Assembly (NCBI GenBank): GCA_016788525.1
Contig: JAEUPD010000143.1
Location: 1-37,311, forward strand
Origin: Rubrivivax sp.
GTDB lineage: Bacteria > Pseudomonadota > Gammaproteobacteria > Burkholderiales > Burkholderiaceae_C
Length of the DNA: 37,311 nucleotides
Direction: 5' to 3'
Made by a program: the position numbers and the translations under genes. Positions 16,935-33,429 of this stretch are shown here, piece after piece (the first letter of the stretch is position 1; each line of letters opens with the position of its first letter). The notes beneath the pieces are model-generated. The model ran no database searches. It saw only the letters and a program-made list of their open reading frames with translations, and had not been told where the DNA came from.

Positions 16935-18512
16935 TCAGCGGCCGGCGTCCTGTGCGCCGTGCAGCGGCTCGCCCGTGGCGGCGGGGGCGGCGGGGCGCAG
17001 CGTGACCTCGGGGCTGGCGGTCAGCGCGCGGCGCAGCAGCTTGCCGGTGGCTGTGCGCGGCAGCGCCTCGAGCGCCACCAGCCGTGCCGGGCGCTGGTGG
17101 GGCGGCAGCGCCATCGCGCGCGCGCCGAGTGCCGAGCGCACCGCGGCCATGTCGGCGCCGTCAGCCACGAAGAACAGCTGCAGCTCGCTCAGGCCGTCGG
17201 CGTCGTCACTGCATGCCAGCGCCGCCTCGCGCAGGCCGCGCACTCCGGCGGTCAGCTGTTCCTCGAGCAGCGCCAGGTCGACCCAGCGGCCGCGCTGCTT
17301 GACCAGCGAGTCCTCGCGGCCGGCGAAGCGCCAGCCGGTTCCTTCCTGCACGAAGAGGTCGGCCGGGCAGAAGCGGCCGTCGCGGAAGCTCTCGGCGTCG
17401 GCGGCCGGCCGCCGGTGGTAGCCGAGCGCGAGCGTCGGGCAGCGCAGCGCGAGCCGCGTTGGTTCGCCCGAGGCGGCAGCGCGCTCATCGGCGGGCCGCA
17501 CCTCTACGCCCGGCGACGGCGACAGCTGCGCTTCGTCGGGCGCCGCGGTCAACGCCAGGACCAGCGTTTCCGAGGTGCCCCAGCCGTCCCACAGCGGCAC
17601 GCCGGTGGCGGCGCGCCACTGCTCGCGCAGCCGCGCGGGCAAGGCCTCGCCGGCCGACACCGCCAGGCGCAGTGACGAGCCGCGCAGCGTGCCGGCGTGC
17701 CCGTCGTGCAGTAGGCCACGGTACAGCGCCGGGACCGAGAACAGCACGCTCGGCCGGTGCGGGCCGACGAAGGCGGCCACCCCGGCCGTCGTGGGCCAGC
17801 GCGGGTCGATCAGCAGCGTGGCGCCCAGGCGCAGGCCGGCCAGCAGGCCGTTGACCAGCGGGTAGGTGAAGAACAGGCGCGAGCTGGCGAAGAGCCGATC
17901 GTCACCCGTCACGCCCAGCCGCTCGGTCGAGATGCGCGCGATGTGGCTCGCCGCGCGGTGAGCGTGCACCACCGCCTTCGGCCGGCCAGAGGTGCCCGAC
18001 GAGTGCACCCACAGCATCGGATCACCATCGCCCCGGGGCACGGGCTCGACGGGTGCGCCGGCGACCGCGCGAAGCAGCGGCAGGTCGAGGGCGACTGCGC
18101 GCGTCGCTGCAGGGGCGACGGCCGCGGTGGCATCGGCAGCGTCCGCGGCGCGGCCCGTGCCGGTCGCGTTGCCCGGTGCGCCCGTGTCGGCCGCGTCGCC
18201 GATCACGAACGAAAAGCCCGACTCCTCGCAGGCGGCACGCCACTCGTCGGCCGGCAGCCGCGGGTTCACGCCCACGGCCACGCCGCCCGCCCAGATCACC
18301 GACAGCCAGGCTTCGACCCAGCCGATGCCGTCGGTGAGCCGCACGGCCACCACGCCGCCGGGCTGCAGCCCGAGCCGGCGCCAGGCCCCGGCCAGGCGCG
18401 CGACACGATCGCGCAGCTCGCCGCGCGACACACTCTGCCCTTCACAGTCGATCGCGATGCCGGCGTCGCCGCGCGGGCCCGCGGGCCGCAGCAGCAGCTC
18501 GGCGCCGTTCAT
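16935..18512 (-). CDS. Benzoate/4-hydroxybenzoate-type CoA ligase
   Basis: This 525-residue acyl-adenylate-forming enzyme has the AMP-binding loop WVHSSGTSGRPKAVVH (about 168-183), WDGWGTSETL further on, and the C-terminal PRTATGKLLRR with the adenylation lysine K491. Its length and the segment FASSRLFFTYPLVNGL resemble benzoate-CoA and 4-hydroxybenzoate-CoA ligases. It activates an aromatic acid to its CoA thioester at the cost of ATP to AMP. An Ala-rich insertion occupies residues about 108-140. Its ATG overlaps the hcrB stop codon (ATGA), which points to 4-hydroxybenzoate as substrate so that the Hcr reductase can remove the hydroxyl group. Benzoate or 3-hydroxybenzoate remain possible. 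Confidence 0.82.
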   Translation of the reverse strand: MNGAELLLRPAGPRGDAGIAIDCEGQSVSRGELRDRVARLAGAWRRLGLQPGGVVAVRLTDGIGWVEAWLSVIWAGGVAVGVNPRLPADEWRAACEESGFSFVIGDAADTGAPGNATGTGRAADAADATAAVAPAATRAVALDLPLLRAVAGAPVEPVPRGDGDPMLWVHSSGTSGRPKAVVHAHRAASHIARISTERLGVTGDDRLFASSRLFFTYPLVNGLLAGLRLGATLLIDPRWPTTAGVAAFVGPHRPSVLFSVPALYRGLLHDGHAGTLRGSSLRLAVSAGEALPARLREQWRAATGVPLWDGWGTSETLVLALTAAPDEAQLSPSPGVEVRPADERAAASGEPTRLALRCPTLALGYHRRPAADAESFRDGRFCPADLFVQEGTGWRFAGREDSLVKQRGRWVDLALLEEQLTAGVRGLREAALACSDDADGLSELQLFFVADGADMAAVRSALGARAMALPPHQRPARLVALEALPRTATGKLLRRALTASPEVTLRPAAPAATGEPLHGAQDAGR

Positions 18513-19492
18513 CGCGCGGCCAGCTCCAGCAGCAGGCGCTCGGCCGCTGTGGCCGCCACCAGGCGGCGGTAATGCGCCGCGGTCACGGTGCTGCGCATGG
18601 GGCTTGCCTGCCTGGCGACCAGCTTGCCCAGCGCGCGCGCGGCCTCGTCACCTGGTGCCTGCCCGAGCAGGGCCTCGGTGCCCTGCAGCCGCACGGGGTG
18701 CGAGTTGGTGCCGCTCACGCCCACCGCCAGCTCGGCGATGGTGCCCTGCTGCAGCCGCAGCACCATGGCCACGCCGGCCAGCGCGAAGTCCATCGCCGCG
18801 CGTGAGCGCATCTTGCGATAGGCGCTCGCGCTGCCGGCGGCCGGGCGGGGCAGCCAGACACTGGCCAGCAGCTCATGGGGAGCCAGCGTCAGGTGCGCCG
18901 CGCCGTCGTCGCGGTAGAGGTCGGCCAGCGGCAGCGTGCGCCGGCCCTCCAGGCTCGCGAGCTCCACCGTCGCGCCGTAGGCGATGAGCGCCGGCGCCAG
19001 GTCGCCGGCGTAGGCGGCATGGCAGCGCTGGCCTTGCGGCGCCACGTGGCAGGTGGTGCCTTCGTGCTTCAGGCAATGGCCGTTGGCCTGCCGCCACCAC
19101 GCGCTCTGGTTGTAGTAGATGCAGCGCGTGTCCTGGCACAGGTTGCCGCCCACCGTGGCCGCGCTGCGGTGGCCGGGGCCGGCCACCTGCGAGGCGGCCA
19201 TCACCAGCGCCGGCCAGACCTCGGCCAGGTCGGTGGCCTGCGCGCGGCGGATCAACGCCGCCAGCGTGAGGCCGGCGCCCAGGCGCAGGCCCTCGCCGTC
19301 TTCGCGCACCGCGTCAAAACCCTCGATCGCCCCGAGGTCCACCAGCCACCTCGGCGTGCCGATGCCGCGGCGCAGGTTGGGCAGCAGGTCGGTGCCGCCG
19401 GCCACCAGGCGCGCGCGCGGGCGCAGCAGCAGCGCGGCGGCGTCCTCGAGGGTGGTGGGGCGCAGCAGTTCCAGTTCGCCGGCGGGCAGCAT
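18509..19492 (-). CDS. hcrB: 4-hydroxybenzoyl-CoA reductase, FAD/[4Fe-4S] subunit
   Basis: This 327-residue FAD-binding subunit belongs to the xanthine-oxidase family (VAGGTDLLPNLRRGI and ATVGGNLCQDTRC). It has the extra loop unique to 4-hydroxybenzoyl-CoA reductase, with Cys124, Cys140, Cys148 and Cys157. Their spacing of 16, 8 and 9 residues equals that reported for the [4Fe-4S] ligands of the Thauera enzyme (122, 138, 146, 155). This makes the functional assignment specific rather than general to molybdenum hydroxylases. The subunit passes electrons toward the molybdenum site for reductive dehydroxylation. It overlaps hcrA by one base and the CoA ligase by four. Confidence 0.93.
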   Translation of the reverse strand: MLPAGELELLRPTTLEDAAALLLRPRARLVAGGTDLLPNLRRGIGTPRWLVDLGAIEGFDAVREDGEGLRLGAGLTLAALIRRAQATDLAEVWPALVMAASQVAGPGHRSAATVGGNLCQDTRCIYYNQSAWWRQANGHCLKHEGTTCHVAPQGQRCHAAYAGDLAPALIAYGATVELASLEGRRTLPLADLYRDDGAAHLTLAPHELLASVWLPRPAAGSASAYRKMRSRAAMDFALAGVAMVLRLQQGTIAELAVGVSGTNSHPVRLQGTEALLGQAPGDEAARALGKLVARQASPMRSTVTAAHYRRLVAATAAERLLLELAAR

Positions 19493-21990
19493 CAGCGCAC
19501 CTCCGCGGTGGGGGTGGCAGCGGAGGCGGCGCTGCCCGTCGCGGGCGCTTGTCCGCCACCCCGGCGCGCGGCACGCTGCCGCTCGCGCTGCTCTTCGCGC
19601 CGCTTCTCGACGAGCGCTTCGAGCAGCCGGTCGGGCGTGATCGGCAGTGCGCGAACGCGCAGGCCGACCGCGTCGTGGATCGCCGCGGCCACCGCAGGCG
19701 GCACGCTGTGGATGCCGCCCTCGCTCGCCTCCTTCGCGCCGAAAGGTCCTAGCGGGTCGTGGCTCTCGATGAGCGTGACGTCGATCGGCGGCGAGTCCAG
19801 CGCCGTGGGCATCCGGTAGTCGAGGAGGTTGGCGCGCAGCGGCAGCCCCTCGTGATAGGTGTTCTCCTCGCTGAGCGCCTGGCCGATGCCCATCCACACC
19901 GCGCCTTGCACCTGGCCTTGCACGGCCAGCGGGTTGATCGCACGGCCGCAGTCGTGTGCGGTCCAGCAGTGCAGCACGCGAACGCTGCCGGTGTCCTCGT
20001 CGACCTCGACTTCCACCACCTGCGCGGCGTACGAGAAGCCGGCGGTCGAACCGACCGCGGCGCCGCGGAAACGGCCCCCCTGCGTCTCGGGCGGCGTCGA
20101 CCAGGTGCCCTTGGTGGTGAGCGTGCCGGTGTCGGCCAGCGCCGCCTGCACCACGTCGGCGAAGTGCAGGCCGCGGTCGGTGCCGGCGACGACGCAGCTT
20201 TCGCCCAGCCACTCGACGTCGTCGGCGGCGGCTTGCAGCTTCTTCGCCGCGGCTTCGACGAGCACGCGCTTCAACGCCTCGGCGGCGCGCAGCGCGGCGT
20301 TGCCGACCATGAACGACACGCGCGAAGAGTACGAGCCGTTGTCCTTGGGCGTCAGCGCGCTGTCGCCGGCGACGACGCGGATGCGCGCCATCGGCAGCAG
20401 CAGCACCTCGGCCACCACCTGCGCCAGCAGCGTCGACGAGCCCTGGCCGATGTCGGCCGCCCCGGTGAGCACGGTGATGCTGCCGTCGAAGTCGAGCTTC
20501 AGGTTGACGACGGCGTGCGGCTCGCCGCTCCAGTGCACGGGCTTGGCCGAGCCCGAGACGTAGTGCGAGCAGGCCATGCCCAGGCCGCGGCGGACCGGGC
20601 CGGCCTGCGCGAGGCGTCCGTGCCGCTCTTTCCAGCCGCTGGCAAGTTCCACCGCTTCCAGACACTGCGGCAGCCCGTACGAGTTGACCTGCAGGTCGTT
20701 GAGCGTGCGGTGCGGCGGCGCGATGAGGTTGGCGCGGCGCAGTGCAAACGGGTCGAGCCCGAGCTGCCCGGCCATCTCGTCCAGCAGCGACTCGAACGCG
20801 AAGCGCACGTTGACCGCGCCATGCCCGCGCATCGCGCCGCAGGGGGGCAGATTGGTGTAGACCCGGTAGCCGCGGTAGCGCGCCGCGCCCATGCGGTACA
20901 GCGCGTGCAGCAGCGCGCCGGCGTAGAGGATGGTGACGAGGCCGTAGCCGGCATAGGCGCCGCCGCGCTGCACCACCTCGGCGTCCACCGCGGTGATCTC
21001 GCCGCTGTTCTTCAACCCGAGCTTCAGCCGGATGCGGCTGGCCGGCCGCGCGCGGTGGGTGAGAAACGAGTCCTCGCGCGTGCACTGCAGCTTCACGGTG
21101 CCCCCGGCGGCGCGTGCCAGCGCGGCGGTGACCATCTCGAAGTTCAGCGGCTCGACGCGGTGCCCGAAGCCGCCGCCGACAAACGGCTTGACGACGCGGA
21201 TCGCATCGGTCGGCAGCGCGAGCGTGCGCGCCAGCGTCAGGTGCAGGTAATACGGCACCTGCGTTACCGAGTGCACCGTGAGCTGAGAAGTCTCGGCGTT
21301 CCACTCGGCGATGGTGGCGTTGAGTTCGATCTGGCCGTGCGACACCTCGGCGCAGTCGTATTCGCGCTCGAGCACGAGATCGGCAGCGGCCAGGCCGGCC
21401 TCGACATCGCCGAAGTCCTGTTCGACGCGGCGCTCGATGTTGCCTGGCTTGTCATCGTGCAGCTGCACCGCATCGGGTGCGCGCGCGGCGTCGACCTCGA
21501 AGAGGGCGGGCAGCTCGTCGATCTCCACGCGCACCGCGGCCAGCGCGGCGGCAGCGCTCGCTTCGTCGTCGGCGGCCACCGCGAACAGCGGCTCTCCGCG
21601 GTAGCGCACCTTGCCGCGCGCCAGCGGCCACTCGTTCTGCGCGATCGGGATCACGCCGTAGGGCGCGGCGAAGTCCTCGCCGGTGATCACCGCGCGCACG
21701 CCGGGCAACGCCAGCGCGGCGGTGGGGTCGATGCGGCGGATGACGCCATGCGCCACCGCGCTGCGGCCGATGCGGCCGACGAGCGCGCCGGCGAAGGGCA
21801 GGTCGGCGGTGTAGCGCGCGCGGCCGCTGACCTTCTCGATGCCGTCCACCAGCGGCTGCGCGCGGCCCACCGAGTGCGTGGGCGGCGCCGGCTCGCGCAG
21901 CGGGGTTGCGTCGTGTCTACTCTTCATTGAATCACCTTCGCCCTTGAACGGCTTCGGCATGAGCGCTTGGGAGCGGCCCGGCGCGCTCAT
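19492..21990 (-). CDS. hcrA: 4-hydroxybenzoyl-CoA reductase, molybdopterin catalytic subunit
   Basis: This subunit of about 832 residues belongs to the xanthine-oxidase family of molybdenum enzymes. It has FVGGGFGHRVEPLNFE, PPCGAMRGHGAVNVRFAFE and DIGQGSSTLLAQVVAE, and the catalytic-type Glu754 in GPFGAKEASEGG. It removes the ring hydroxyl of 4-hydroxybenzoyl-CoA to give benzoyl-CoA. The ATG at 21990 overlaps the hcrC stop codon (ATGA) and has GGGAG upstream. An ATG at 21927 with AAGG nearby would give 811 residues and is a real alternative. An Arg/Ala-rich tail of about 35 residues extends past the family's usual end. The C-A-B order here differs from the textbook A-B-C naming. Confidence 0.92.
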   Translation of the reverse strand: MSAPGRSQALMPKPFKGEGDSMKSRHDATPLREPAPPTHSVGRAQPLVDGIEKVSGRARYTADLPFAGALVGRIGRSAVAHGVIRRIDPTAALALPGVRAVITGEDFAAPYGVIPIAQNEWPLARGKVRYRGEPLFAVAADDEASAAAALAAVRVEIDELPALFEVDAARAPDAVQLHDDKPGNIERRVEQDFGDVEAGLAAADLVLEREYDCAEVSHGQIELNATIAEWNAETSQLTVHSVTQVPYYLHLTLARTLALPTDAIRVVKPFVGGGFGHRVEPLNFEMVTAALARAAGGTVKLQCTREDSFLTHRARPASRIRLKLGLKNSGEITAVDAEVVQRGGAYAGYGLVTILYAGALLHALYRMGAARYRGYRVYTNLPPCGAMRGHGAVNVRFAFESLLDEMAGQLGLDPFALRRANLIAPPHRTLNDLQVNSYGLPQCLEAVELASGWKERHGRLAQAGPVRRGLGMACSHYVSGSAKPVHWSGEPHAVVNLKLDFDGSITVLTGAADIGQGSSTLLAQVVAEVLLLPMARIRVVAGDSALTPKDNGSYSSRVSFMVGNAALRAAEALKRVLVEAAAKKLQAAADDVEWLGESCVVAGTDRGLHFADVVQAALADTGTLTTKGTWSTPPETQGGRFRGAAVGSTAGFSYAAQVVEVEVDEDTGSVRVLHCWTAHDCGRAINPLAVQGQVQGAVWMGIGQALSEENTYHEGLPLRANLLDYRMPTALDSPPIDVTLIESHDPLGPFGAKEASEGGIHSVPPAVAAAIHDAVGLRVRALPITPDRLLEALVEKRREEQRERQRAARRGGGQAPATGSAASAATPTAEVR

Positions 21991-22457
21991 GCCCGCGCTC
22001 CCGCGGCAGCCTGCACCGCCTCGACGATCTTCACGTAGCCGGTGCACCGGCACAGATTCCCGGCCAGCGCCTCGCGCACCTGCGCCTCGGTGGGCCTCGG
22101 CACCTCGCGCAGCAGCGCTTCGGCCGCCATCACCATGCCCGGCGTGCAGAAACCGCACTGCGCGCCGAGCTTCTCGTGGAAGGCGCGCTGCAGCGCGGCG
22201 AGGCGCCCCTGCGTGGCCAGCGACTCGATGGTCTCGATGGCGCGGCCCTGCACGCTGGCGGCCAGCGTGATGCAGGCCAGACGCGGCTCGCCATCGACCA
22301 GCACGGTGCAGGCACCGCACTCGCCGCCGTCGCAGCCCTGCTTGGTGCCGGTCAGGCGCAGCGTCTCGCGCAGCACGTCCAGCAGCAGCACGCCCTCGGG
22401 GGCGGCCACTGCGTGCGGGCGGCCATTGACTTGCAGTTCGATCAGCTTGGCGCGCAT
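21987..22457 (-). CDS. hcrC: 4-hydroxybenzoyl-CoA reductase, [2Fe-2S] subunit
   Basis: This 156-residue protein carries two [2Fe-2S] clusters. The plant-ferredoxin-type set is C42, C47, C50 and C62 (GCDGGECGACTVLVDG), and the second set is C101, C104, C136 and C138 (CGFCTPGM, NLCRCTGY). This is the standard small subunit of molybdenum hydroxylases. Its assignment to Hcr rests on the specific HcrB next door. It starts 20 bases after the phenylacetate-CoA ligase stop codon and overlaps hcrA, so it is probably part of the same transcript. Confidence 0.92.
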   Translation of the reverse strand: MRAKLIELQVNGRPHAVAAPEGVLLLDVLRETLRLTGTKQGCDGGECGACTVLVDGEPRLACITLAASVQGRAIETIESLATQGRLAALQRAFHEKLGAQCGFCTPGMVMAAEALLREVPRPTEAQVREALAGNLCRCTGYVKIVEAVQAAAGARA

Positions 22458-22477
22458 CGGCGTTCCTCGTTCGGTGT

Positions 22478-23896
22478 TCAGGCGGCAGCGGGGCCGGCGC
22501 CGCTGCCGTGTTCGCGGGGTGAGCCGGCGTTCCCTGGCCGCAGGTCGCGCACGCGCTGTGCCTTGCCTTGCGAGCGCGGCAGCGTGCCGGGGGCCCGCAC
22601 CACCACGTCGGCGGTCAGCCCGATGAGCGACTTGACGTGGTGGCGGGTGTCTTGCGCCGCGGCGGGGTAGGCGTCTTGCGGCCAGCCGGGCAGCGCCTCG
22701 ACCTCGATGCGCAGGTGGTCGAGCGCGCCCACGCGCTCGATCACCAGCTGGTAGTGCGGTGCCAGCCCGGGCCGGCCGACGAGCACGGCCTCGATCTGCG
22801 ACGGGTAGACGTTGACGCCGCGCACGATGAGCATGTCGTCGTTGCGCCCGGCCACGCGCAGGATGCGCAGGTGCGTGCGGCCGCAGGCGCAGCGCCGGGT
22901 GGTCAGGCGCGTGATGTCGCGCGTGCGGTAGCGCAGCATCGGAAGCGCTTCCTTGGTGAGCGTGGTGATCACGAGTTCACCGGCACTCCCCTCGGCCACC
23001 GGCGCGCCGCTGTCGGGGTCCACCAGTTCGAAAAGGAAGTGGTCCTCCCAGCCGTGCAGGCCCTCGCGCGCCTCGCACTCGCAGGCCACGCCGGGGCCCA
23101 TGATCTCCGACAGGCCGTAGACATCGTGGGCGCGCAGGCCCAGGCGCGCCTCGATCTCGTGGCGCATCGCCGCGCTCCACGGCTCGGCGCCGAACATGCC
23201 GATGGCGAGCCGGCTTGCGTGCAGGTCGACGCCCTGCTGCTCGGCGACCTCGGCGATGGCCAGCGCATACGAAGGGGTGGCGCACAGCACGCGCGGCCCG
23301 AAGTCCATGATCAGCGCCACCTGGCGCTCCGTGCCGCCGCCGCTCACCGGCACCACCGGGCAGCCGAGGTGTTCGGCGCCGGCATGCGCACCGAGCCCGC
23401 CGGTGAACAGGCCGTAGCCGTAGGCGTTGTGCACCAGGTCGCCCGGGCGCACGCCGGCACCGGCCATCGAGCGCGCCATCAATGCCGCCCAGCGCGCGAG
23501 GTCGCCGCGCGTGTAGCCCACGACGGTGGGCTTGCCGGTGGTGCCCGACGAGGCGTGGATGCGCGCCAGCTGCTCCACCGGCCGTGCGAAGAGGCCGAAC
23601 GGATAGTGCTCGCGCAGATCGCCCTTCACCATGAAAGGCAGCCGGCGCAGGTCGTCGGGCGAGCGCAGCGCATCGGGGTGCAGGCCGGCGGCCTCGAGCC
23701 GCGCGCGCTGCCACGGCACATGGCTCCAGGCGTTGCGCAGCGTCTCGCGCAGGCGCTCCAACTGCAGCGCGGCGAGCGCGTCGCGCGAACAGCACTCGAC
23801 CTCCGAGGGTGCGTTCGTGGTGTTCGGCATGGTCCAGGGCGCGGCGGGTGCGGCGCCGCCAGCAGGGAAACGTGCAGGCTCGGCCGGCATGCCCAT
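22478..23896 (-). CDS. paaK: Phenylacetate-CoA ligase
   Basis: This 472-residue PaaK-family ligase has SSGTTGKPTVVGYT (116-129), GAEPWSAAMR, VYGLSEIMGPGVACEC and RVAGRNDDMLIVRGVNVYPSQIE. It activates phenylacetate (or a hydroxylated relative) to the CoA thioester. The ATG at 23896 has AAGGAGAG upstream and gives about 30 extra residues before the family core. An internal ATG at 23830 is a less likely start. It lies between the pad-like membrane subunit (13-base gap) and hcrC. In Thauera and Aromatoleum the anaerobic ligase (padJ) likewise sits with padBCD. 4-hydroxyphenylacetate is an equally plausible substrate. Confidence 0.92.
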   Translation of the reverse strand: MGMPAEPARFPAGGAAPAAPWTMPNTTNAPSEVECCSRDALAALQLERLRETLRNAWSHVPWQRARLEAAGLHPDALRSPDDLRRLPFMVKGDLREHYPFGLFARPVEQLARIHASSGTTGKPTVVGYTRGDLARWAALMARSMAGAGVRPGDLVHNAYGYGLFTGGLGAHAGAEHLGCPVVPVSGGGTERQVALIMDFGPRVLCATPSYALAIAEVAEQQGVDLHASRLAIGMFGAEPWSAAMRHEIEARLGLRAHDVYGLSEIMGPGVACECEAREGLHGWEDHFLFELVDPDSGAPVAEGSAGELVITTLTKEALPMLRYRTRDITRLTTRRCACGRTHLRILRVAGRNDDMLIVRGVNVYPSQIEAVLVGRPGLAPHYQLVIERVGALDHLRIEVEALPGWPQDAYPAAAQDTRHHVKSLIGLTADVVVRAPGTLPRSQGKAQRVRDLRPGNAGSPREHGSGAGPAAA

Positions 23897-23909
23897 GGCA
23901 AGCTCTCCT

Positions 23910-25420: not shown

Positions 25421-28200
25421 GCGGCGGCTCCTTCGTGCCGCGCCGGCGAGCGCGCCTTGGCCAACTTGACGCGCACGACGTCGGCGCCCGAGCCTGTGGC
25501 ATCGGTGAGTTCCATCGACATCGTCGTCAGCGAGTTCATGCTCGCCATGCCGAAGTCCTTGGCGTGCGGCGTCGCCCAGTGGTCGAACTGGCCGATCAAC
25601 AGCAGCGTGTCGGGCCGGATGCCCTGGCGCAGCACGGCACGCGCGCGCACCTTGCGCCGTGGGGTGGCGATCTCGACCGCATCGCCTTCGGCGATGCCGA
25701 GCCGGCCGGCCGCGCCGGTGTTCAGGATCACACCCTGGTGGCCGGCGATGTTCTGCGACACCTCGCGCATCAGCTGCATGCCGGCGTTGGCCCCCCACGC
25801 GTACTGCATGCTGCGCGCGGTGAGCAGCCAGAACGGGTAGTCCTCGGCGCGGCCGCCGACCTGGGCGACGCTCGCCTCCCACAGGCCCGGGAAGTCCTTC
25901 CACGCCGGCAGGCCCTGGTATTCCTTCAGCTGCGTGTCCCACCAGTGCATGTCGTGCTCGTGCAGCCGGCGGCCGAGCTCGCGGCCCACGCGCAGCAGCC
26001 GCTCCTGGTAGGGCAGTTCGAAGCGCAGGCCCTGCTTCATCATCGTGGGCAGCAGGTACCACTCGCGGCGCGGGAAGGGTCTGGTCGCCAGGCCATGCTC
26101 CTTCCACCACTCCAGGCCATGCGCATGCGCGCCATCGCTGACCTCGGCGCTGGCGGCGCGGCACACGGCGTCCCAGATCTGCTCGCGGTCGTGGCGCGCG
26201 CCGGTGTCCAGCGAGAAGTCGCCGAACTCGCTCTTGAGGGGCACGCCGCCGGCACCCTTGTTGATGGCGGCGTAGTACTTCTGGGCGATGCCGACGCGGT
26301 GCGCCAGCTCGGTGCTGATGTCGGTGAAGTCGCGTGCCTGGCCATGCGGCGCCACCACCGGCTGGCGCAGCGCGAAGCCCTGGTGGTCCCAGAACGACTC
26401 CTGGTACTTGGTGCCGCCCACGCGCCACAGCTGCAGGCTCTCCAGGTCCATCGCGTCGGGCAGCAGCACGTCGGCGAAGTGGTTCGTCTCGTCGTGCGTG
26501 TAGGCGAACGCCACCGTGAACGGGAAGCGCGCCATCTTCTCGCCGAGCGCAGCCGTATCCCAGAACGACACGCCGGGGTTGGTGCGGTAGACGAACCAGG
26601 CCTCGGGCAGCGTGACGCGCGGCAGGCCCTTGGGCGTTTCGTCGAGAAAGAGCCACGAGAAGTGCGTGGGCCCCAGCGCCTGGCTCCACGGCCCGTCGGC
26701 GGCCAGCGGCACCATGGTGCGGTAGGCGTTGCGGATGTTCGGGTTCGGCGACCAGTGCTCCTTGCTCGTCGGGTTCAGCGGGTAATGCATGAAGCCGTCG
26801 GGCCCGGGCTTGACGCTCTCGTGGCGGTGCGACATCGGCCGCGTCAGCCGGATGGTGGTGCCGATCGTGCCGCCGGGCACCTCCAGCGCGCCGGCCAGCG
26901 TGGCCATCAGCGTGCGCGCCCAGCAGCACTCGAAGCCGCCCCAGCCGTTGTTGACCGTCTTGCCCAGCGTCACCGCCACCGGGCGGTAGGGGAAGGTCGA
27001 GCCCTCGATCTCGATCGTCCGGCCGACGCAGGCGTGGTCGATCCACTCGTGGGCGATGCGGCGCATCGTCGCCGCCGGCACGTCGCACACCTGCTCGGCC
27101 CACTCGGGGCTGTAGGGCCGCATGTGCTCGACCAGGCGGGTGAACGCGGTGGTGCCTGGCAGCAGGCCGTCACGCCCGCTGTCGGCGAGCAGGTCGCCGT
27201 CGGGGCCGATCTCGACCGCGTCGACTTCGTAGCGGCCCTCGAGTGCCTCGTGCAGCGCGGCGGCGTCGTGTTCGCGCGCGGCGCCGCGCAGGGCGTCCCA
27301 CACCAGTGGCTTGCGACTCGTGCGCTCGCGCAGGTAGTAGCCGTTGGGCCCGACGAGATAGGGCGACGCAGTGCGCGTGGCGAGGAAGGGCAGGTCGAGC
27401 TGCTCGCGCGCCACCTCGTGCAGCAGCACGTGGATGAGCGCGAACAGGAACGCGGCGTCGGTCTTGGGCTTGATCGGCACCCACTCGGCCGAGCAGGCGC
27501 CGGTGATGGAAAGGTGCGGCTCGACCTGCACGCGCTTCATGCCGCGCACGCGGGCCTGCGCGTGGCGGGCCACACCGGTGACGCCGCCCGAGGCCTCGAT
27601 GTTGGAGCCGCAGGAGATGAGGTAGTTGGTGAGCGGCGTGTCCGGCGTGACGATGAAGGCGCGGTGCCAGAACTCGCCGTACAGGTGCTCGGAGTGGTAG
27701 CACTTGACGCCCTGGCCCGAGCCGAAGCCCATGTCCACCGGGCCCCAGGCCGCGAGGAACGCCGGGAACGTGCCCATGTACGACTGCGGCGTGCCCGCGC
27801 CGCCGAAGCTGGCCGCCACGCGCGGGTAGCCCGACTCGTCGACCAGGCCGCGGGCGCGGATGCCCTGCAGCCTGTCGGTGATGAGCGCAAACGCCTCGTC
27901 CCACGAGATCTCGACGAAGCCCGGGTCTTCGGCGCGGCCCTTCTTCGGGTTGGTGCGCTTCATCGGGGCCAGGATGCGGTGCGGGTTGTTCGTCTTCTGG
28001 ATCAGCCCGTAGGCCTTGACGCACACCTTGCCGCCGGCCGGGTGGATGCCGGCGGCGCAGAAGTTGGGCTCGACCTCGGTGGCCACGCCCGCTTCCACCT
28101 TGACCGTCAGCAGGTCGGGGCCGGCCACGCATTGGTAGCAGTAGGTGGGCACCTGGCGCACGCCAGGTGCTGCACGCTGGGCGGTGGGGGTGGCGGGCAT
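25417..28200 (-). CDS. padB: PadB-like phenylacetyl-CoA:acceptor oxidoreductase, molybdopterin subunit
   Basis: This 927-residue molybdenum enzyme of the DMSO-reductase superfamily has an N-terminal [4Fe-4S] site (C21, C24, C48, C60), HRILAPMKRTNPKKG, a possible molybdenum-ligand region around GVKCYHSEHLYGE (C167), and a C-terminal molydopterin-binding domain (FWLLTARSMQYAWG, GDAVEIATPRRKVRARA). Together with the FeS and membrane subunits next to it, and phenylacetate-CoA ligase, it matches Thauera PadBCD. PadBCD oxidises phenylacetyl-CoA to phenylglyoxylate with quinone as acceptor. No twin-arginine signal peptide is seen, consistent with a cytoplasmic active site. The ATG at 28200 has AAGGGGAG upstream. 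A related 4-hydroxyphenylacetyl-CoA or other arylacetyl-CoA substrate is possible. Confidence 0.86.
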   Translation of the reverse strand: MPATPTAQRAAPGVRQVPTYCYQCVAGPDLLTVKVEAGVATEVEPNFCAAGIHPAGGKVCVKAYGLIQKTNNPHRILAPMKRTNPKKGRAEDPGFVEISWDEAFALITDRLQGIRARGLVDESGYPRVAASFGGAGTPQSYMGTFPAFLAAWGPVDMGFGSGQGVKCYHSEHLYGEFWHRAFIVTPDTPLTNYLISCGSNIEASGGVTGVARHAQARVRGMKRVQVEPHLSITGACSAEWVPIKPKTDAAFLFALIHVLLHEVAREQLDLPFLATRTASPYLVGPNGYYLRERTSRKPLVWDALRGAAREHDAAALHEALEGRYEVDAVEIGPDGDLLADSGRDGLLPGTTAFTRLVEHMRPYSPEWAEQVCDVPAATMRRIAHEWIDHACVGRTIEIEGSTFPYRPVAVTLGKTVNNGWGGFECCWARTLMATLAGALEVPGGTIGTTIRLTRPMSHRHESVKPGPDGFMHYPLNPTSKEHWSPNPNIRNAYRTMVPLAADGPWSQALGPTHFSWLFLDETPKGLPRVTLPEAWFVYRTNPGVSFWDTAALGEKMARFPFTVAFAYTHDETNHFADVLLPDAMDLESLQLWRVGGTKYQESFWDHQGFALRQPVVAPHGQARDFTDISTELAHRVGIAQKYYAAINKGAGGVPLKSEFGDFSLDTGARHDREQIWDAVCRAASAEVSDGAHAHGLEWWKEHGLATRPFPRREWYLLPTMMKQGLRFELPYQERLLRVGRELGRRLHEHDMHWWDTQLKEYQGLPAWKDFPGLWEASVAQVGGRAEDYPFWLLTARSMQYAWGANAGMQLMREVSQNIAGHQGVILNTGAAGRLGIAEGDAVEIATPRRKVRARAVLRQGIRPDTLLLIGQFDHWATPHAKDFGMASMNSLTTMSMELTDATGSGADVVRVKLAKARSPARHEGAAA

Positions 28201-28244
28201 GGTGCTCCCCTTGGAGTCGCTGTGGGAGACGTCCTCGCGGGTGA

Positions 28245-28670
28245 TCAGCCCTGCGCGGACTGGGCGGCGGCCTTGGCCTTCTCGGCCTTGGCCGCCAGGC
28301 GCTGCGCGGTCTTGTTCACGTCGACGATGAACCGCGCATGCCTGCCGCGCACGATGGGTTCGACCGTGTCGCGGCCTTCGACCTCGAACACCACGGCGCG
28401 ACCATTGACCTCGGCCACGCGCACCGTGAGCGTGACCGGCATGCCCAGCAGCGTGGCACCGATGTGGTCGATCTCCACGCGGGTGCCCACCGAGTCTTCG
28501 CCGGCATCCAGGTGCGCCAGCAGCAGGTTGCGGCAGGTCATCTCGATGTCGCGCACCAGCATCGGCGTGGCGTAGACGCGCGCGGCTTCTCCCATGAAGT
28601 CGATGGTGCGCTCGCGGTCGATATCGAACGACGCAACGGCTGCGAGGCCGGGTTGCAGCGTGGGCTTCAT
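28245..28670 (-). CDS. FlK-type acyl-CoA thioesterase
   Basis: This 141-residue hot-dog-fold thioesterase resembles fluoroacetyl-CoA thioesterase FlK. By alignment from memory, the FlK triad Thr42-Glu50-His76 maps to Thr35 (VYATP), Glu43 (DIEM) and His69 (DHIGATLLG), with the same 8- and 26-residue spacing. LDAGEDSVGT is also shared. It lies 44 bases before padB in the same direction, so the substrate is probably an aryl-CoA of this pathway, not fluoroacetyl-CoA. It may discharge a stalled thioester or release the arylglyoxylate from CoA. A Lys/Ala-rich tail ends the protein. AAGGAC precedes the ATG. Confidence 0.82.
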   Translation of the reverse strand: MKPTLQPGLAAVASFDIDRERTIDFMGEAARVYATPMLVRDIEMTCRNLLLAHLDAGEDSVGTRVEIDHIGATLLGMPVTLTVRVAEVNGRAVVFEVEGRDTVEPIVRGRHARFIVDVNKTAQRLAAKAEKAKAAAQSAQG

Positions 28671-28772
28671 GGGTCGTGTCCTTGGGCTGTGAGTCGCAAG
28701 TGGGTTGCGGGTTGTCGCGGGTGGGGCGCTCGTGAATCGCTCGTCGATGGCTTGTTGCTGTGCGGTGCCGGC

Positions 28773-29480
28773 TCAGTGCCCGAGGTAGGCCTTCCGGACG
28801 GTGGCATCGCGCAGCAACTCGGCGGCGGTGCCTTCGACGGCCAGGCGCCCTGTTTCCATCACGTAGCCGCGGTCGGCGATCGCCAGCGCGGCGCGCGCGT
28901 TCTGGTCGACGAGCAGGATCGTCGTGCCGCGCGCCTTCAGCGCCTTGACGTGGTGGAAGATCTCGGCCACCAGCTTGGGCGCCAGGCCCATGCTCGGCTC
29001 GTCGAGCAGCAACAGGCGCGGGTCGGCCATCAACGCGCGGCCGATGGCCAGCATCTGCTGCTGGCCGCCCGAGAGCGTGCCCGCGGCCTCGGCGCGCTTG
29101 TCGGCCAGCGCCGGGAACATGGCCCACACCTTGTCGACGGTGGCGGCGGTGCCGCGCGCGAAGGCGCCCAGCCGCAGGTTGTCTTCGACGCTGAGCGCGC
29201 CGAACACCTGCCGGCCCTCGGGCACCTGCACCATGCCGCGCCGCACGCGCTGGCGTGGCGTCTCGCGGCCGATGTCGGCGCCGTCGAAGCGGATGGTGCC
29301 GGCGGCCAGCGGCTGCACGCCCGACAGCGTGCGCAAGAGAGTGGTCTTGCCGGCGCCGTTGGCACCGACGATGGCCACCAGTTCACCGGCCGCCACCTGC
29401 AGCGAGATGCCGTCCAGCGCCGGAATGCGCCCGTAGCGGCTGGCCAGGCCCTGCACCTGCAACAGCGGCTCGCTACGCAT
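28773..29480 (-). CDS. livF: ABC transporter ATP-binding protein (LivF type)
   Basis: This 235-residue ATPase has Walker A GANGAGKTT (39-47), the LSGGQQQML signature and Walker B LLLLDEPSMGLAP, the last with the second LivF hallmark PSMGLAPKLV. It energises the importer together with LivG. Its ATG lies 8 bases inside the 3' end of livG, so the two are translationally coupled. A gap of about 100 bases follows before the thioesterase gene. Confidence 0.92.
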   Translation of the reverse strand: MRSEPLLQVQGLASRYGRIPALDGISLQVAAGELVAIVGANGAGKTTLLRTLSGVQPLAAGTIRFDGADIGRETPRQRVRRGMVQVPEGRQVFGALSVEDNLRLGAFARGTAATVDKVWAMFPALADKRAEAAGTLSGGQQQMLAIGRALMADPRLLLLDEPSMGLAPKLVAEIFHHVKALKARGTTILLVDQNARAALAIADRGYVMETGRLAVEGTAAELLRDATVRKAYLGH

Positions 29481-30246
29481 CGGCCGGCTCCTCGGCGCCG
29501 AGATAGGCCTCGATGACGAGCGGGTCGCGGCTCACCTCGGCCGGCGTGCCTTCGGCCAGCTTCGCGCCACGGTCGAGTACCAGCACGCGGTCGGACACCT
29601 CCATCACGAGCGCCATGTTGTGCTCCACCAGCAGCACCGTCATGCCCTCGGCGGCCAGGCCGCGGATCAGCGCGTCGATCTCGTGCGCCTCGGTGGGGTT
29701 GAGCCCGGCGGCGGGCTCGTCCAGCAGCAGCAGCTTCGGCTCGGTGGCCAGCGCGCGCGCGATCTCCAGCCGCTTCAGCGCACCGTAGGGCATCGCGTCG
29801 GCGCGCGCGCCGAGCCAGGGCGCGAGGCCCACGCGCTGCATCAGCGCCGCGGCGCGCTCGCGGCTGGCGTGCTCGGCCCACACCGCGGGCTCCAGGCGCA
29901 TGAGCGCCGTGAGCAGCGAGCGGTTCTCGTGCAGGTGGCGCCCGGTCATCACGTTCTCGAGCGCGGTCATGTTGAAGAAGACCTGCAGGTTCTGGAACGT
30001 GCGTGCCAGCCCGGCCGCGGCGAAGCGGTGCGTCGGCTGGCCGGTGAGGTCGCGGCCGCCGAGCACGACGCGCCCGGCATCGGGCGTGTAGACGCCCGTC
30101 AGCAGGTTGAGCAGCGTCGTCTTGCCCGCGCCGTTGGGGCCGATGATCGCGTGCACCGTGCCGGGCTGCACCTCGAAGGAGAGGTCGTCGATGGCCTGCA
30201 GGCCGCCGAAGCGCTTGCCCAGGCCGGTGACTTGCAGCAGCGCCAT
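29473..30246 (-). CDS. livG: ABC transporter ATP-binding protein (LivG type)
   Basis: This 257-residue ATPase has Walker A GPNGAGKTT (36-44), the LivG-specific GLARTFQNLQVFFNMTALENVM segment, and Walker B LLLLDEPAAGLNP. It is the second nucleotide-binding subunit of the branched-chain-amino-acid-type importer. It follows livM by 22 bases and overlaps livF by 8. Confidence 0.93.
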   Translation of the reverse strand: MALLQVTGLGKRFGGLQAIDDLSFEVQPGTVHAIIGPNGAGKTTLLNLLTGVYTPDAGRVVLGGRDLTGQPTHRFAAAGLARTFQNLQVFFNMTALENVMTGRHLHENRSLLTALMRLEPAVWAEHASRERAAALMQRVGLAPWLGARADAMPYGALKRLEIARALATEPKLLLLDEPAAGLNPTEAHEIDALIRGLAAEGMTVLLVEHNMALVMEVSDRVLVLDRGAKLAEGTPAEVSRDPLVIEAYLGAEEPADA

Positions 30247-30268
30247 CGCGACCTCGCCGCCTCGCCCT

Positions 30269-31285
30269 TCAGCGCCGGCCGATGAGCCGTGCCAGCGTCG
30301 GCACGATGCCGCGCGGCATGCCCACCATGGTGGCGATGAGCACCGCGCCGAAGACCATCATCTCGTAGTCCTTCAGCACGGTGAGGAACTGCGGCAGCAG
30401 TGTCAGCACCGCGGCGCCGACCACCGCGCCCCAGACGGAAGCCATGCCGCCGAAGACGACCATGATGACGAGTTCCACCGAATGCAGGAACGACGCCTTG
30501 GCCGGCGTGATGAAGCCGGCGTAGTGCGCGGCCAGCGCCCCGGCGGTGGCGGCAATCAATGCCGATTGCACGAACACCATCAGCTTGAAGCGTGCCGCGT
30601 CGATGCCCAGCGTCCCTGCGGCCACCTCGGAGCCGTGCAGCGCGCGCAGCGAGCGGCCGATGGGCGAATCGATCAGGTTCAGCGCCAGCAGCACCGTCAG
30701 CCACAGCGCCGCGGCGACGATGGCGTACCACAGCGGCTCGCCTTGCACCGGCTGGCCGAACAGCACCAGCGGCGGCACGCTCATGCCGTCGGGGCCGCCG
30801 GTGAGGCGGTCTTCGTTGGTGAGCACGATGGAGGCGATGACGCCCAGGCCCAGCGTGGCCATCGCCAGGTAGTGGCCCTTCAGCCTGAGCGTCGGGCGCC
30901 CCACCGCCCAGGCCAGCGCACCGACCGCGGCCACCGCCGCCGGCAGCGACACCCACACCGGCCAGCCCCAGCGCGCCGCGAGGATGGCGCTGCCGTAGCC
31001 GCCGAGCGCGTAGAACGCCGCGTGACCGAGGCTGATCTGGCCGGCATAGCCGATCAACAGATTCAGCCCGACGCAGACGATGGCGTTGATGGCCACCAGG
31101 ATCGCCACCTCGAAGAAGAAGTTGTTGGGGAAGAACGGCGGCAAAGCGACCAGCAGCGCGGCGAAGGCAGCCAGCGACAGCGTGCGCGGCGAGCGCCAGC
31201 GTGCCCGGCCAGCGCCGGGCACGCCCGCAGGCGGGTGCGCGCTGCCGATCGGTGCGCGCTCAGACACGCTCACTGCCGCGCGCAC
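30269..31285 (-). CDS. livM: ABC transporter permease (LivM type)
   Basis: This permease of about 338 residues has the LivM signatures NAIVCVGLNLLIGYAGQISLGHAAFYALGGYGSAIL-type region, LKGHYLAMATLGLG and DSPIGRSLRALHGSEVAAGTLGID. A GTG at 31285 was chosen because GGAGG lies 8 bases upstream; a TTG six bases earlier has the ribosome site too close. Other GTG starts at 31273 and 31267 are possible. The gene overlaps the end of livH. Confidence 0.85.
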   Translation of the reverse strand: MRAAVSVSERAPIGSAHPPAGVPGAGRARWRSPRTLSLAAFAALLVALPPFFPNNFFFEVAILVAINAIVCVGLNLLIGYAGQISLGHAAFYALGGYGSAILAARWGWPVWVSLPAAVAAVGALAWAVGRPTLRLKGHYLAMATLGLGVIASIVLTNEDRLTGGPDGMSVPPLVLFGQPVQGEPLWYAIVAAALWLTVLLALNLIDSPIGRSLRALHGSEVAAGTLGIDAARFKLMVFVQSALIAATAGALAAHYAGFITPAKASFLHSVELVIMVVFGGMASVWGAVVGAAVLTLLPQFLTVLKDYEMMVFGAVLIATMVGMPRGIVPTLARLIGRR

Positions 31286-32153
31286 CGGCAATCCCTCCGG
31301 GCAGGAAGAACAGCACGCCGAGGATGACGATGAAGGCGAGCGCGTCCTTGTACGCCGAGGACACGAAGCCCGCGCTCAGGCCCTCGAGCAGCCCGAGCAG
31401 CAGCCCGCCGGCCACCGCGCCGCCGAAGCTGCCGAGGCCGCCGAGGATGGCGGCGGCGAAACCCTTCAGCCCCAGCATCACGCCCACGTCGTACGAGGTG
31501 AAGGTGATGGGTGCGGTGAGCACGCCGCCCAGGGCGCCCAGCGCGGCGGCGAGCGCGAAGCTCACGCGCATCACGCCGCGGGTGGAGATGCCCATCAGCC
31601 GCGCGGCCAGCGGGTTGATGGCGGTTGCGCGCATCGCCTTGCCGTACAGCGTGCGGCCGAAAAACCCGCCGAGCGCCACGACCGCCAGCGCGCTGCCCAC
31701 CAGCACCCACAGGCTTTGCGGCAGCACGCTGGCGCCACCGGGGCCGCCGATCGAGAGGGGAGTGTTGCCGCTGAAGGCCGGCAGCGCGTGGATGCGCTTG
31801 TCCCACACCACCTGCGCGGCCCCGCGCAGAAAGAGCGCCACGCCGATGGTGATGATGATCAGCGTCACCACGTCGGCCTGGCCGCCGGCCTGTGCGCGTT
31901 CCAGCGCCAGGCGCTGCACCAGCACGCCGACGATCGCCGCGCCGGCCACCGCCAGCGGCACCGCCAGCCAAAGCGGCAGGCCCAGCGCCACCAGCGACAC
32001 CGCGCCCATGCCGCCCAGCATCACGAACTCGCCCTGCGCGAAGTTGATGGCGTGACTGGCGTTGTAGACGATGGAAAAGCCCAGCGCGACCAGCGCGTAG
32101 ATGGCGCCGGCAGTCAAGCCGCCGGCGACGAACTGCAGCCAGGAGCCGGACAT
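31260..32153 (-). CDS. livH: ABC transporter permease (LivH type)
   Basis: This 297-residue permease has the typical LivH start GGLTAGAIYALVALGFSIVYNASHAINFAQGE and the later motif GLKGFAAAILGGLGSFGGAVAGGLLLGLLEG. With LivM it forms the membrane channel. It starts 49 bases after livK in the same operon. Confidence 0.93.
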   Translation of the reverse strand: MSGSWLQFVAGGLTAGAIYALVALGFSIVYNASHAINFAQGEFVMLGGMGAVSLVALGLPLWLAVPLAVAGAAIVGVLVQRLALERAQAGGQADVVTLIIITIGVALFLRGAAQVVWDKRIHALPAFSGNTPLSIGGPGGASVLPQSLWVLVGSALAVVALGGFFGRTLYGKAMRATAINPLAARLMGISTRGVMRVSFALAAALGALGGVLTAPITFTSYDVGVMLGLKGFAAAILGGLGSFGGAVAGGLLLGLLEGLSAGFVSSAYKDALAFIVILGVLFFLPGGIAGARGSERV

Positions 32154-32202
32154 CGTGTGCTCGCGCTGCTCATGCCTGTGGCAGTGAAGGCGCGGCGCGC
32201 CC

Positions 32203-33429
32203 CTACTTGACGAGAGACCAGGTGCCGCCCTTCACCTCGAGCATGCGGAAGGCGCTCAGGTCCAGCCCCATGTGGTCGGTGGCGCTCATGTTCACCACGC
32301 CGCCGGTACCGACATAGCCCTTGGTGGCTTCGATGGCGTCGCGCACCCTGGCCTTGTCGGTGCTGCCGGCGGCCTTGATGGCGTTCACGGCGATCATCAG
32401 GCCATCGAGCGCGTGGCCGCCGAAGGTGGAGACCTCGCTCTTGAACTTGCCCTCGAAGGCGTTGCGGTAGGCGGTGACGACGGGCTTCTGCGGGTCGCCG
32501 GCGGCCAGCAGGTCGGCCACCAGCAACGCCGCGGCGGGCAGGCGCACACCCTCTGCGGCGTCGCCGGCGAGCTTGATGTACTCCTTGGAGGCCACGCCGT
32601 GCGACTGGTACAGCGGCAGGCCGACACCCACCTGCTTGTGGTTGCGCGTGACGATCGCCGGCCCCTGGCCGAAGCCGGCGTTGAGCACCGCCTGCGCCCC
32701 GCTGCCCTTGATCTTGGTGAGCTGCGCGGTCATGTCGGTGTCGGCGGCGCCGTAGGTCTCGTCGGCGACGACCTGCACGCCGTGGTTGGGTGCCACCTTC
32801 AGGCACTCGCCGCGCATGCTCTTGTCGAAGCCGCCGCTGCCCGAGATGAGCGCGGCCTTGGTGAAGCCGCGCGCCTTCATGTCCACGAAGATCTTGTCGC
32901 AGGCCATGCGGTCGGTGTGCGGCGTCTTGAACACCCACTTCTTGGCCGGCTCGACGATCACCACCGCGCCGGCCAGCGAGATGAACGGCACGCCCGCGCC
33001 CTCCACCAGCGGCACCGCGGCCATCGTCGTGCCGGTGGTCGAGCCGCCGACGATGACGTCGACCTTGTCCTGCTCGAGCAGGCGCTTGGCGAAGGTGCGC
33101 GCCTTCTCGGCGTCGCCGGCGTCGTCGTAGCTGACGAGCTGCAGCTTGCGGCCGAGCACGCCGCCGGCGGCGTTGATCGCCGCGATCTGCATCTCGAGCG
33201 TCTTCAGCTCGGGGTCGCCGAGGAACGATGCCGGGCCGGTGACGGACAGGAAGGTGCCGACGCGGATGGGTTCCTGGGCCTGCACCGCGGGCGCGAATGC
33301 CGCCCATGGCAGCAGCGCGGCGGCGAGGGCGCCGCCGCGGACGCAGCGCGCCATGCGGCCGGTCATGCGGCGAGTCGTGAGGCTGGTAACGCCTCGGGCC
33401 ACGCCCAGAGCCAGGCGACGGATGCTCAT
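32203..33429 (-). CDS. livK: ABC transporter substrate-binding protein (LivK type)
   Basis: This 408-residue periplasmic binding protein has a long signal peptide with an Arg-rich start (MSIRRLALGVARG) and cleavage near AVQA-QEP (about residue 51). The type I periplasmic fold follows (VGTFLSVTGPASFLGDPELK, VDVIVGGSTTGTTMAAVP, FLAVSG-like PFISLAG). AAGGAG sits 7 bases before the ATG. It is first in the importer operon, divergent from the GNAT-Rrf2 pair. Members near aromatic genes often bind aromatic acids rather than leucine. That ligand assignment is inference. Confidence 0.9.
   Translation of the reverse strand: MSIRRLALGVARGVTSLTTRRMTGRMARCVRGGALAAALLPWAAFAPAVQAQEPIRVGTFLSVTGPASFLGDPELKTLEMQIAAINAAGGVLGRKLQLVSYDDAGDAEKARTFAKRLLEQDKVDVIVGGSTTGTTMAAVPLVEGAGVPFISLAGAVVIVEPAKKWVFKTPHTDRMACDKIFVDMKARGFTKAALISGSGGFDKSMRGECLKVAPNHGVQVVADETYGAADTDMTAQLTKIKGSGAQAVLNAGFGQGPAIVTRNHKQVGVGLPLYQSHGVASKEYIKLAGDAAEGVRLPAAALLVADLLAAGDPQKPVVTAYRNAFEGKFKSEVSTFGGHALDGLMIAVNAIKAAGSTDKARVRDAIEATKGYVGTGGVVNMSATDHMGLDLSAFRMLEVKGGTWSLVK

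Follow-up and report, generated by a model that had tools for sequence, protein, structure and literature searches.

A recurrent padBCD-paaK-hcrCAB gene cassette of Burkholderiales with a probable role in oxygen-independent arylacetate catabolism

In the described Pad pathway, PadBCD yields phenylglyoxylate and PadEFGHI converts this to benzoyl-coenzyme A (benzoyl-CoA), PadJ being the phenylacetate-CoA ligase (pathway account in PMC5109826). In Aromatoleum aromaticum EbN1, padB, padI and padJ carry the gene numbers VIMSS816693, 816700 and 816701, and hcrB and hcrA, for 4-hydroxybenzoyl-CoA reductase (HCR), carry VIMSS815644 and 815645 (gene entries in PMC2907700); these numbers fit the statement, made in an earlier sequence-only reading of the DNA treated here, that pad and hcr are generally described as separate loci in Thauera-type denitrifiers. 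Here we analyze a window of 37,311 bp, the whole of contig C94 of a Rubrivivax sp. metagenome-assembled genome (G000; 4.43 Mb, 268 contigs, 73% complete), in which the two gene sets stand in one minus-strand run. From 33429 down to 16935 it comprises 14 genes: livKHMGF, a gene for a FlK-type thioesterase, padBCD, paaK, hcrCAB and an aryl-CoA ligase gene. The run is a conserved cassette of Burkholderiales, and it probably serves the breakdown of arylacetates (4-hydroxyphenylacetate and/or phenylacetate) without oxygen.

Gene order, recurrence and transcription

Gene models were built on open reading frames (ORFs), purine-rich motifs upstream of them and protein families. All 14 close-packed genes that the sequence-only reading had described, from livK to the CoA ligase, are present, with junctions ranging from -26 to +102 bp. 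The 4-base overlaps it had called frequent are also borne out: seven of the 13 junctions overlap, four of them by 4 bp (padB/padC, padC/padD, hcrC/hcrA and hcrB/ligase) and the others by 1, 8 and 26 bp, the last value hinging on the start chosen for livM. Gaps of 13–49 bp lie at five junctions, including padD-paaK (13 bp) and paaK-hcrC (20 bp), and the largest gap, 102 bp, separates livF from the thioesterase gene.

We then asked how far this order is shared. A search of 84,980 species genomes gave 473 stretches with PadB relatives, of which the best 80 were kept, so that the counts lean to close relatives; the closest named locus among these best 80 of 473 is L031 ("Rubrivivax sp. MAG-215"), with a PadB identity of 94%. 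Neighboring genes were called by tblastn at identity limits of 30–55%, depending on the gene, and no more than 450 bp apart, with loci ended by a contig edge set aside (2 for padC, 7 for padD, 11 for paaK, 7 for hcrC, 1 for hcrA and 2 for hcrB). Among assessable loci, padB was followed by padC in 76 of 78 (the misses being L064 and L077), padC by padD in 70 of 70, padD by paaK in 41 of 59, paaK by hcrC in 25 of 39, hcrC by hcrA in 26 of 26 and hcrA by hcrB in 24 of 24; 43 of 73 had the thioesterase gene in the 700 bp ahead of padB. An unbroken padBCD-paaK-hcrCAB chain, assessed where at least 7 kb of downstream DNA was available and with gaps of up to 600 bp, occurred in 24 of 43 named loci, 12 of which had livK and livF upstream, 19 the thioesterase gene and eight a ligase homologue (at least 40%). 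The order is beyond chance: apart from L031, the loci that share it, 24 in all, have a PadB just 72–79% identical to that of the window.

A second sample, less tied to the window, covered 399 genomes of the order, and at E ≤ 1e-60 a PadB-like protein turned up in 20 of these. Ten padB loci were read over 33–40 kb; padBCD-paaK-hcrCAB stood in three (G102, G179 and G317), and G396 lacked only paaK. With 24 of the 43 named loci sharing the order, we rejected a layout peculiar to this genome. Nor is the interleaving of pad and hcr as distinctive as had been claimed, given its frequency in the named loci, which are the most window-like ones, and in three of ten loci of the wider sample. The sequence-only reading had itself named synteny showing the order to be common and well described as grounds for refuting its view: common it is, and no description of a padBCD-paaK-hcrCAB cassette was found in the literature, where coverage was partial and is no proof that the cassette is undescribed.

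A single transcript across the run is plausible from this spacing. Scans for promoters and terminators lend it no support, with no promoter-like sites and terminator-like sites at chance level, and an inverted-repeat search gave nothing or weak results. The block could instead consist of two or three abutting operons with promoters of their own (liv with the thioesterase gene, padBCD-paaK, and hcrCAB-ligase), co-located for a common final product, with phenylacetate entering on one side and 4-hydroxybenzoate on the other. The modules do part in some relatives, in that, at the 450-bp limit, 18 of 59 loci have no paaK call behind padD and 14 of 39 no hcrC call behind paaK, and 34 of 68 assessable loci have no livF call in the 700 bp ahead of padB; some of these misses are effects of detection or of the gap limit, as the chain is intact in L043, L082 and L101 once 600 bp is allowed. 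The widest gap precedes the thioesterase gene, and the terminal ligase would be the hcr module's own substrate entry. Against such a division, overlaps couple padB-C-D and hcrC-A-B-ligase, only 13 and 20 bp separate padD, paaK and hcrC, and pad and hcr form one chain in 24 of the 43 loci. We therefore hold separate operons to be possible, if on the unlikely side.

Enzymes of the cassette and the proposed route

From this gene content we infer a substrate, an electron path, a role for the thioesterase and an identity for the arylglyoxylate enzyme. The Liv-type importer would take up an aromatic or related substrate, and PaaK would form the arylacetyl-CoA, whose alpha-carbon the membrane-bound molybdenum/iron–sulfur (Mo/FeS) enzyme PadBCD would oxidize to the arylglyoxylyl level, with electrons passing from PadB via PadC and PadD to quinone. 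The FlK-like thioesterase may free arylglyoxylate, which a 2-oxoacid oxidoreductase encoded elsewhere would convert to aroyl-CoA. HcrCAB would then strip the para-hydroxyl from 4-hydroxybenzoyl-CoA, the terminal ligase would allow free 4-hydroxybenzoate to enter directly at that level, and benzoyl-CoA would exit to benzoyl-CoA reductase and/or the Box pathway. For the exit, G000 holds HGD-D (benzoyl-CoA-reductase-like) genes on contigs C51 and C135, one of them sharing a 7.5-kb contig with korAB, as well as a boxB above the model cut-off (747 bits, cut at the contig end) and a second boxB piece. Across the 20 padB genomes, HGD-D genes occur in 14, boxB in 17 and HcrA above its cut-off in eight; padB and the HGD-D genes of G179, and likewise of G102, are within ~20 kb of each other and on opposite strands.

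At the head of the run, livK (32203..33429; minus strand, as for all genes of the run) encodes a periplasmic substrate-binding protein of 408 residues (PF13458, 194 bits). It is followed by genes for two ATP-binding cassette (ABC) permeases, livH (31260..32153) and livM (30269..31291, starting at TTG 31291 or GTG 31285), and two ABC ATPases, livG (29473..30246) and livF (28773..29480), all four named by translation and by their conserved order in relatives, not by family scan. The thioesterase (28245..28670) belongs to the FlK-type hot-dog proteins (PF22636, 109 bits; FlK structures 3p3f and 3kv7), and its substrate is perhaps arylglyoxylyl-CoA or a mis-acylated CoA. An ADP-forming acyl-CoA synthetase-like gene adjoins the thioesterase gene in L047, L103 and G329 and stands behind padD in L099.

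The composition that marks PadBCD, a Mo subunit of dimethyl sulfoxide (DMSO)-reductase type with FeS and membrane subunits, is present: padB (25417..28200) encodes a Mo subunit of 927 residues resembling arylacetyl-CoA:acceptor oxidoreductase (Molybdopterin PF00384), padC (24764..25420) a [4Fe-4S] electron-transfer subunit with Fer4 domains, and padD (23910..24767) a membrane anchor (DmsC-like PF04976, E 1.2e-6). The predicted PadB model (predicted local distance difference test score, pLDDT, 72.6; predicted template modeling score, pTM, 0.82) has a DMSO-reductase fold, its closest folds being PcrA (perchlorate reductase), ArrA and ethylbenzene dehydrogenase. Cys21, Cys24, Cys60 and Cys167 are invariant in 21 aligned sequences, and Cys167 is the probable Mo ligand. 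A second padBCD set (PadB 58%) was seen at 2.1–6 kb of L104, on the opposite strand between livK and livH. Next in the run, paaK (22478..23896) encodes a ligase of phenylacetate-CoA ligase type (PDB 2y27, 492 bits); paaK here holds the place of padJ, a name that the sequence-only reading had set beside padBCD.

The products of hcrC (21987..22457; [2Fe-2S] subunit), hcrA (19492..21990; Mo subunit) and hcrB (18509..19492; flavin adenine dinucleotide/[4Fe-4S] subunit) match the HCR subunits. HcrA, at 1142.4 bits, exceeds the curated TIGR03194 cut-off of 994.55. The reference structures 1rm6 and 1sb3 are HCR from Thauera aromatica; HcrB matches 1rm6_B at 283 bits, and every Cys of the GGNLC...DRC stretch of that chain, its extra loop, aligns with a Cys. 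In HCR, this Cys-rich loop of the beta subunit serves a [4Fe-4S] cluster. On these alignments, the identity of HcrCAB as HCR is well supported.

The last gene (16935..18512) encodes an aryl-CoA ligase of benzoate-CoA ligase type (PF00501; PDB 4rlf, 167 bits), which matches six solved sequences at E 1e-40 or better, all named benzoate-CoA ligase, and may be the entry point for 4-hydroxybenzoate. Among the loci assessed, it sits directly on hcrB only in the window and in L031. Six of the eight loci in which a ligase homologue lies near hcrB (L053, L056, L068, L073, L079 and L080) instead carry, directly after hcrB, a fusion ORF of 708–732 residues (e.g. L053:19442-21598) in which an N-terminal Zn-ribbon and a rubrerythrin-like domain are in frame with a ligase half homologous to the window ligase. 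The rubrerythrin part scores above the PF02915 gathering threshold in L053 and L056 and slightly below it in L080, and in a predicted model of the fusion (pLDDT 75.3) the ligase fold is preceded by a four-helix bundle. The suggestion that the window has a more streamlined pathway holds in this one sense, a ligase standing alone on hcrB in the window and L031 versus a fusion in six relatives. Other arrangements were seen behind hcrB. L101:18540-21077 holds hcrB and ligase in one 846-residue frame without a stop, either a possible HcrB-ligase fusion or an assembly effect, and in L064 and L074 a ~215–240-residue N-terminal ligase piece seems to be left, without the usual adenylation motifs. In L055:19484-21820, an Nfn-like fused NAD(P)/ferredoxin oxidoreductase (779 residues) directly follows hcrB; a 71% homologue adjoins a NifJ-type gene on contig C114 of G000, and this Nfn-like oxidoreductase may be a source of reduced ferredoxin for HCR.

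Points of doubt, the arylglyoxylate step and alternative readings

Several results, set out in this and the next paragraph and in the account of the arylglyoxylate step, weigh against the proposed route. PaaK reaches 558 bits on TIGR02155 (cut-off 646) and the terminal ligase 222.5 bits on TIGR02262 (cut-off 375.25), while HcrB (TIGR03195, 387.8 bits, cut-off 404.55) and HcrC (TIGR03193, 246.3 bits, cut-off 257.8) have these models as best matches and fall slightly below them. The HGD-D family, PF06050, also matches E. coli and Methanocaldococcus controls and is not specific to benzoyl-CoA reductase.

The window PadB shares just 27–31% identity (31%, 27% and 29% in three comparisons) with the PadB of G132, which stands beside padEGHI and falls across the midpoint root in a tree of 27 sequences; this comparison took G132 as its reference, included no Thauera or Aromatoleum PadB and does not decide whether the window enzyme belongs with phenylacetyl-CoA:acceptor oxidoreductase, a G132-centered family search aimed at Thauera-type genomes having given four genomes only. 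At the N terminus, PadB of G132 and G100 has CxxCxxxC and the window clade CxxCxxGPD...C, in which the third motif Cys is absent, Asp29 is nearly invariant and Cys21, Cys24 and Cys60 are kept. Canonical padEGHI occur in G083, G329, G432, G434 and G435, with no padB in the 11–20 kb read around them; the PadB proteins of G083 and G329 belong to the window clade, which fits the same reaction for that clade.

The importer gives little hold on the substrate. The nearest solved chains to LivK are 3sg0, 4dqd and others, including the 3tx6/4f8j/4fb4 group. The structural report on CouP describes 4FB4 as its complex with caffeate, also records it crystallized with 4-hydroxyphenylpyruvate, and gives Thr102, Arg197 and Ser222 as contacts of the carboxylate and Gln305 and His309 as contacts of the 4-hydroxyl (structures and contacts in PMC3610893). 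These five residues map onto the 4fb4 chain by a single constant offset, and the window LivK has Thr, Ala, Phe, Thr and His at their columns. Arg197 and Ser222 are both absent in 30 of the 34 members of its cluster and both kept in four, and His309 is kept in 31; 3sg0 keeps the Arg197 equivalent and not that of Ser222. An aromatic ligand is possible for LivK, the alignment indicating that a CouP-like carboxylate clamp is absent, and uptake of a 4-hydroxyphenylacetate-like substrate, as the sequence-only reading proposed, is not assignable. We rejected the importer as a CouP-like binder of 4-hydroxyaryl acids on the lack of Arg197 and Ser222.

CouP also bears on a different purpose for the cassette, the breakdown mainly of tyrosine and phenylalanine, with the Liv importer taking up an aromatic amino acid or 2-oxoacid and an indolepyruvate-type ferredoxin oxidoreductase (IOR) turning arylpyruvates into arylacetyl-CoA and reduced ferredoxin, from which PadBCD and HcrCAB would continue. 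That a solved relative of LivK binds 4-hydroxyphenylpyruvate suits this purpose, as does a fused IOR on the same contig (2233-6126, plus strand, family match 1486 bits). Since the IOR match starts at residue 108 of its frame, the true start is probably past position 2507, where the gene before it, for a 3-hydroxyacyl-CoA dehydrogenase/enoyl-CoA hydratase (435-2507), ends. Elsewhere, iorA- or iorB-type matches neighbor the cassette in L086, L092, L099, L101 and L103, and iorAB adjoin padEGHI in G329 and G432. Yet the IOR gene of the window is ~10.8 kb from the run and on the other strand, LivK lacks the Arg197 and Ser222 of CouP, and PaaK, following PadD in 41 of 59 loci, implies a free arylacetate as substrate. 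An amino-acid origin is thus conceivable, and we regard it as somewhat doubtful.

Returning to the arylacetate route, the sequence-only reading had cast the run as one unit from import to dehydroxylation. Genes for activation, side-chain oxidation and dehydroxylation do lie in one co-directional block, and the unit is not the whole pathway, because the arylglyoxylate-oxidizing step lies outside it: family scans of the window genes found no padEFGHI in the run. Nor did G000, in which absence is unproved at 73% completeness, show PadI or PadG above cut-off; it has no PadI/PorB-type place above 100 bits, and its only PadG-type place is NifJ-type, at 140 bits. In the nearest relative, G399, the sole PadG-type place is again NifJ-type (131 bits), and in both genomes this is one long frame beside an Nfn-like oxidoreductase gene (C114 in G000, C189 in G399). 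The near-complete G102 and G179 gave no PadG match at E ≤ 1e-30; G355, which shares their genus label, has a Por-type PadG place. More widely, PadI exceeds its cut-off in three of the 20 padB genomes and PadG in three of the 399 genomes of the order. When every PadG-type place scoring over 180 bits is counted, whether canonical or not, 11 of the 20 have one, as do 30 of 37 genomes selected from those behind the 80 named loci. L084 has four Por-type genes immediately ahead of padB, and in L034 and G317 Por-type genes stand upstream beyond the GNAT/Rrf2 pair, as expected if PadBCD makes arylglyoxylate. The remaining candidates are KorAB near HGD-D genes (G000, G102 and G179), the NifJ-type protein and an unrecognized enzyme, and an inventory of thiamine-pyrophosphate enzymes in nine genomes left several candidates. 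In Desulfococcus multivorans, too, the arylglyoxylate oxidoreductase step is called unclear (discussion in PMC5109826).

The terminal ligase was considered as a general bypass of the missing step and rejected. Of the 27 genomes behind hcr loci, a PadG-type place above 180 bits is missing from six (L031, L065, L071, L075, L086 and L088), and only L031 among these six has a ligase homologue (at least 40%) near hcrB. L086 shows a partial ligase-like ORF at the cut end of its locus.

The cassette might operate without any PadEFGHI or Por-type enzyme in this lineage, and likewise in the Zeimonas-like G102 and G179. Routes to aroyl-CoA could then be, for example, KorAB near benzoyl-CoA-reductase-type genes, a NifJ-type oxidoreductase, or cleavage at the thioester level, in which PadBCD of the divergent clade, whose cluster motif is altered, would act with its partner thioesterase. 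We think this improbable.

A 2-oxoacid dehydrogenase of the window (E1alpha/E1beta/E2, 13524-9804, minus strand) was rejected as a general substitute for PadEFGHI, and its conversion of arylglyoxylate to aroyl-CoA here is very unlikely: the full E1/E2 set lies on the same strand ~3.4 kb downstream of the ligase, and G083 has a close set (E1alpha 82%) in a similar position, co-directional with padB and ~12.6 kb downstream of it, yet G083 is the only one of ten padB loci with such a set within the 33–40 kb read and has canonical PadG and PadI as well, E1alpha homologues of at least 75% occur in seven of 20 padB genomes, four of them with PadG-type genes (G083, G329, G355 and G381), and G102, without a PadG match, has an E1alpha match of 34% only, so that the enzyme does not track the gap across genomes.

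Flanking genes and comparison with known systems

Same-strand genes carry on beyond the ligase to 9804, so that the lower boundary of the run at 16935, where the sequence-only reading had it stop, is a choice and not a break. Behind the cassette (16841-13674, minus strand) come genes for a hemerythrin, a tandem GNAT protein, an FeS-assembly-type ORF and an unassigned membrane protein with no family match in Pfam or NCBIfam, and then the 2-oxoacid dehydrogenase set. The ligase-hemerythrin gap is 93 bp and the gap to the tandem GNAT gene 46 bp; hemerythrin and tandem GNAT are also found in relatives (clusters of 14 and 18 ORFs).

Divergent from livK on the plus strand are genes for a GNAT acetyltransferase (33569..34093; PF00583; cluster of 52 ORFs) and an Rrf2-family regulator (34096..34554, start uncertain; PF02082, 74 bits), which may regulate the cassette. 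The window Rrf2 protein has no Cys; seven of 47 relatives have any, and none shows a conserved Cys column. A Cys-ligated FeS sensor was accordingly rejected, and this usual role is unlikely for the window protein, judging by the alignment.

Beyond the Thauera and Aromatoleum models, the cassette suggests how facultative Burkholderiales handle 4-hydroxyphenylacetate, or aromatics derived from tyrosine, in the absence of oxygen. It is of interest chiefly for the divergence of its PadB clade and for an arylglyoxylate step that lacks an explanation, and the several cassette genomes that show no recognizable arylglyoxylate oxidoreductase present a testable gap.

Among known systems, the phenylacetate route predicted for Rhodoferax ferrireducens in 2009 (Rfer_3093/3094 and Rfer_2184-87; PMC2755013) likewise pairs PadBC-type genes of a Burkholderiales member with a phenylglyoxylate oxidoreductase; in the accessible portion of that paper, no mention of hcr, a cassette or "4-hydroxybenzo" was found. 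CouPSTU of Rhodopseudomonas palustris is a Liv-type importer whose family the window substrate-binding protein matches at E 1e-34, differing in that CouP Arg197 and Ser222 are Ala and Phe in LivK. HcrCAB resembles the enzyme of 1rm6 and 1sb3 in its three subunits, the HcrA score above the model cut-off and the extra Cys loop of HcrB, whereas in the window hcr stands directly behind padBCD-paaK and is coupled to an aryl-CoA ligase gene. The closest counterpart is the Pad pathway of Thauera aromatica, Azoarcus evansii and Aromatoleum aromaticum EbN1, which shares an arylacetate-CoA ligase, a PadBCD-type Mo enzyme with FeS and membrane subunits, and a product that feeds benzoyl-CoA (features as given in PMC5109826). 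Unlike it, the window run is without padEFGHI, has hcrCAB and a Liv importer joined in, and carries a PadB whose clade lies apart from that of G132 (the comparison drawn above, with no Thauera or Aromatoleum PadB) and whose N-terminal Cys motif is altered. The cassette is a conserved variant of known pathways.

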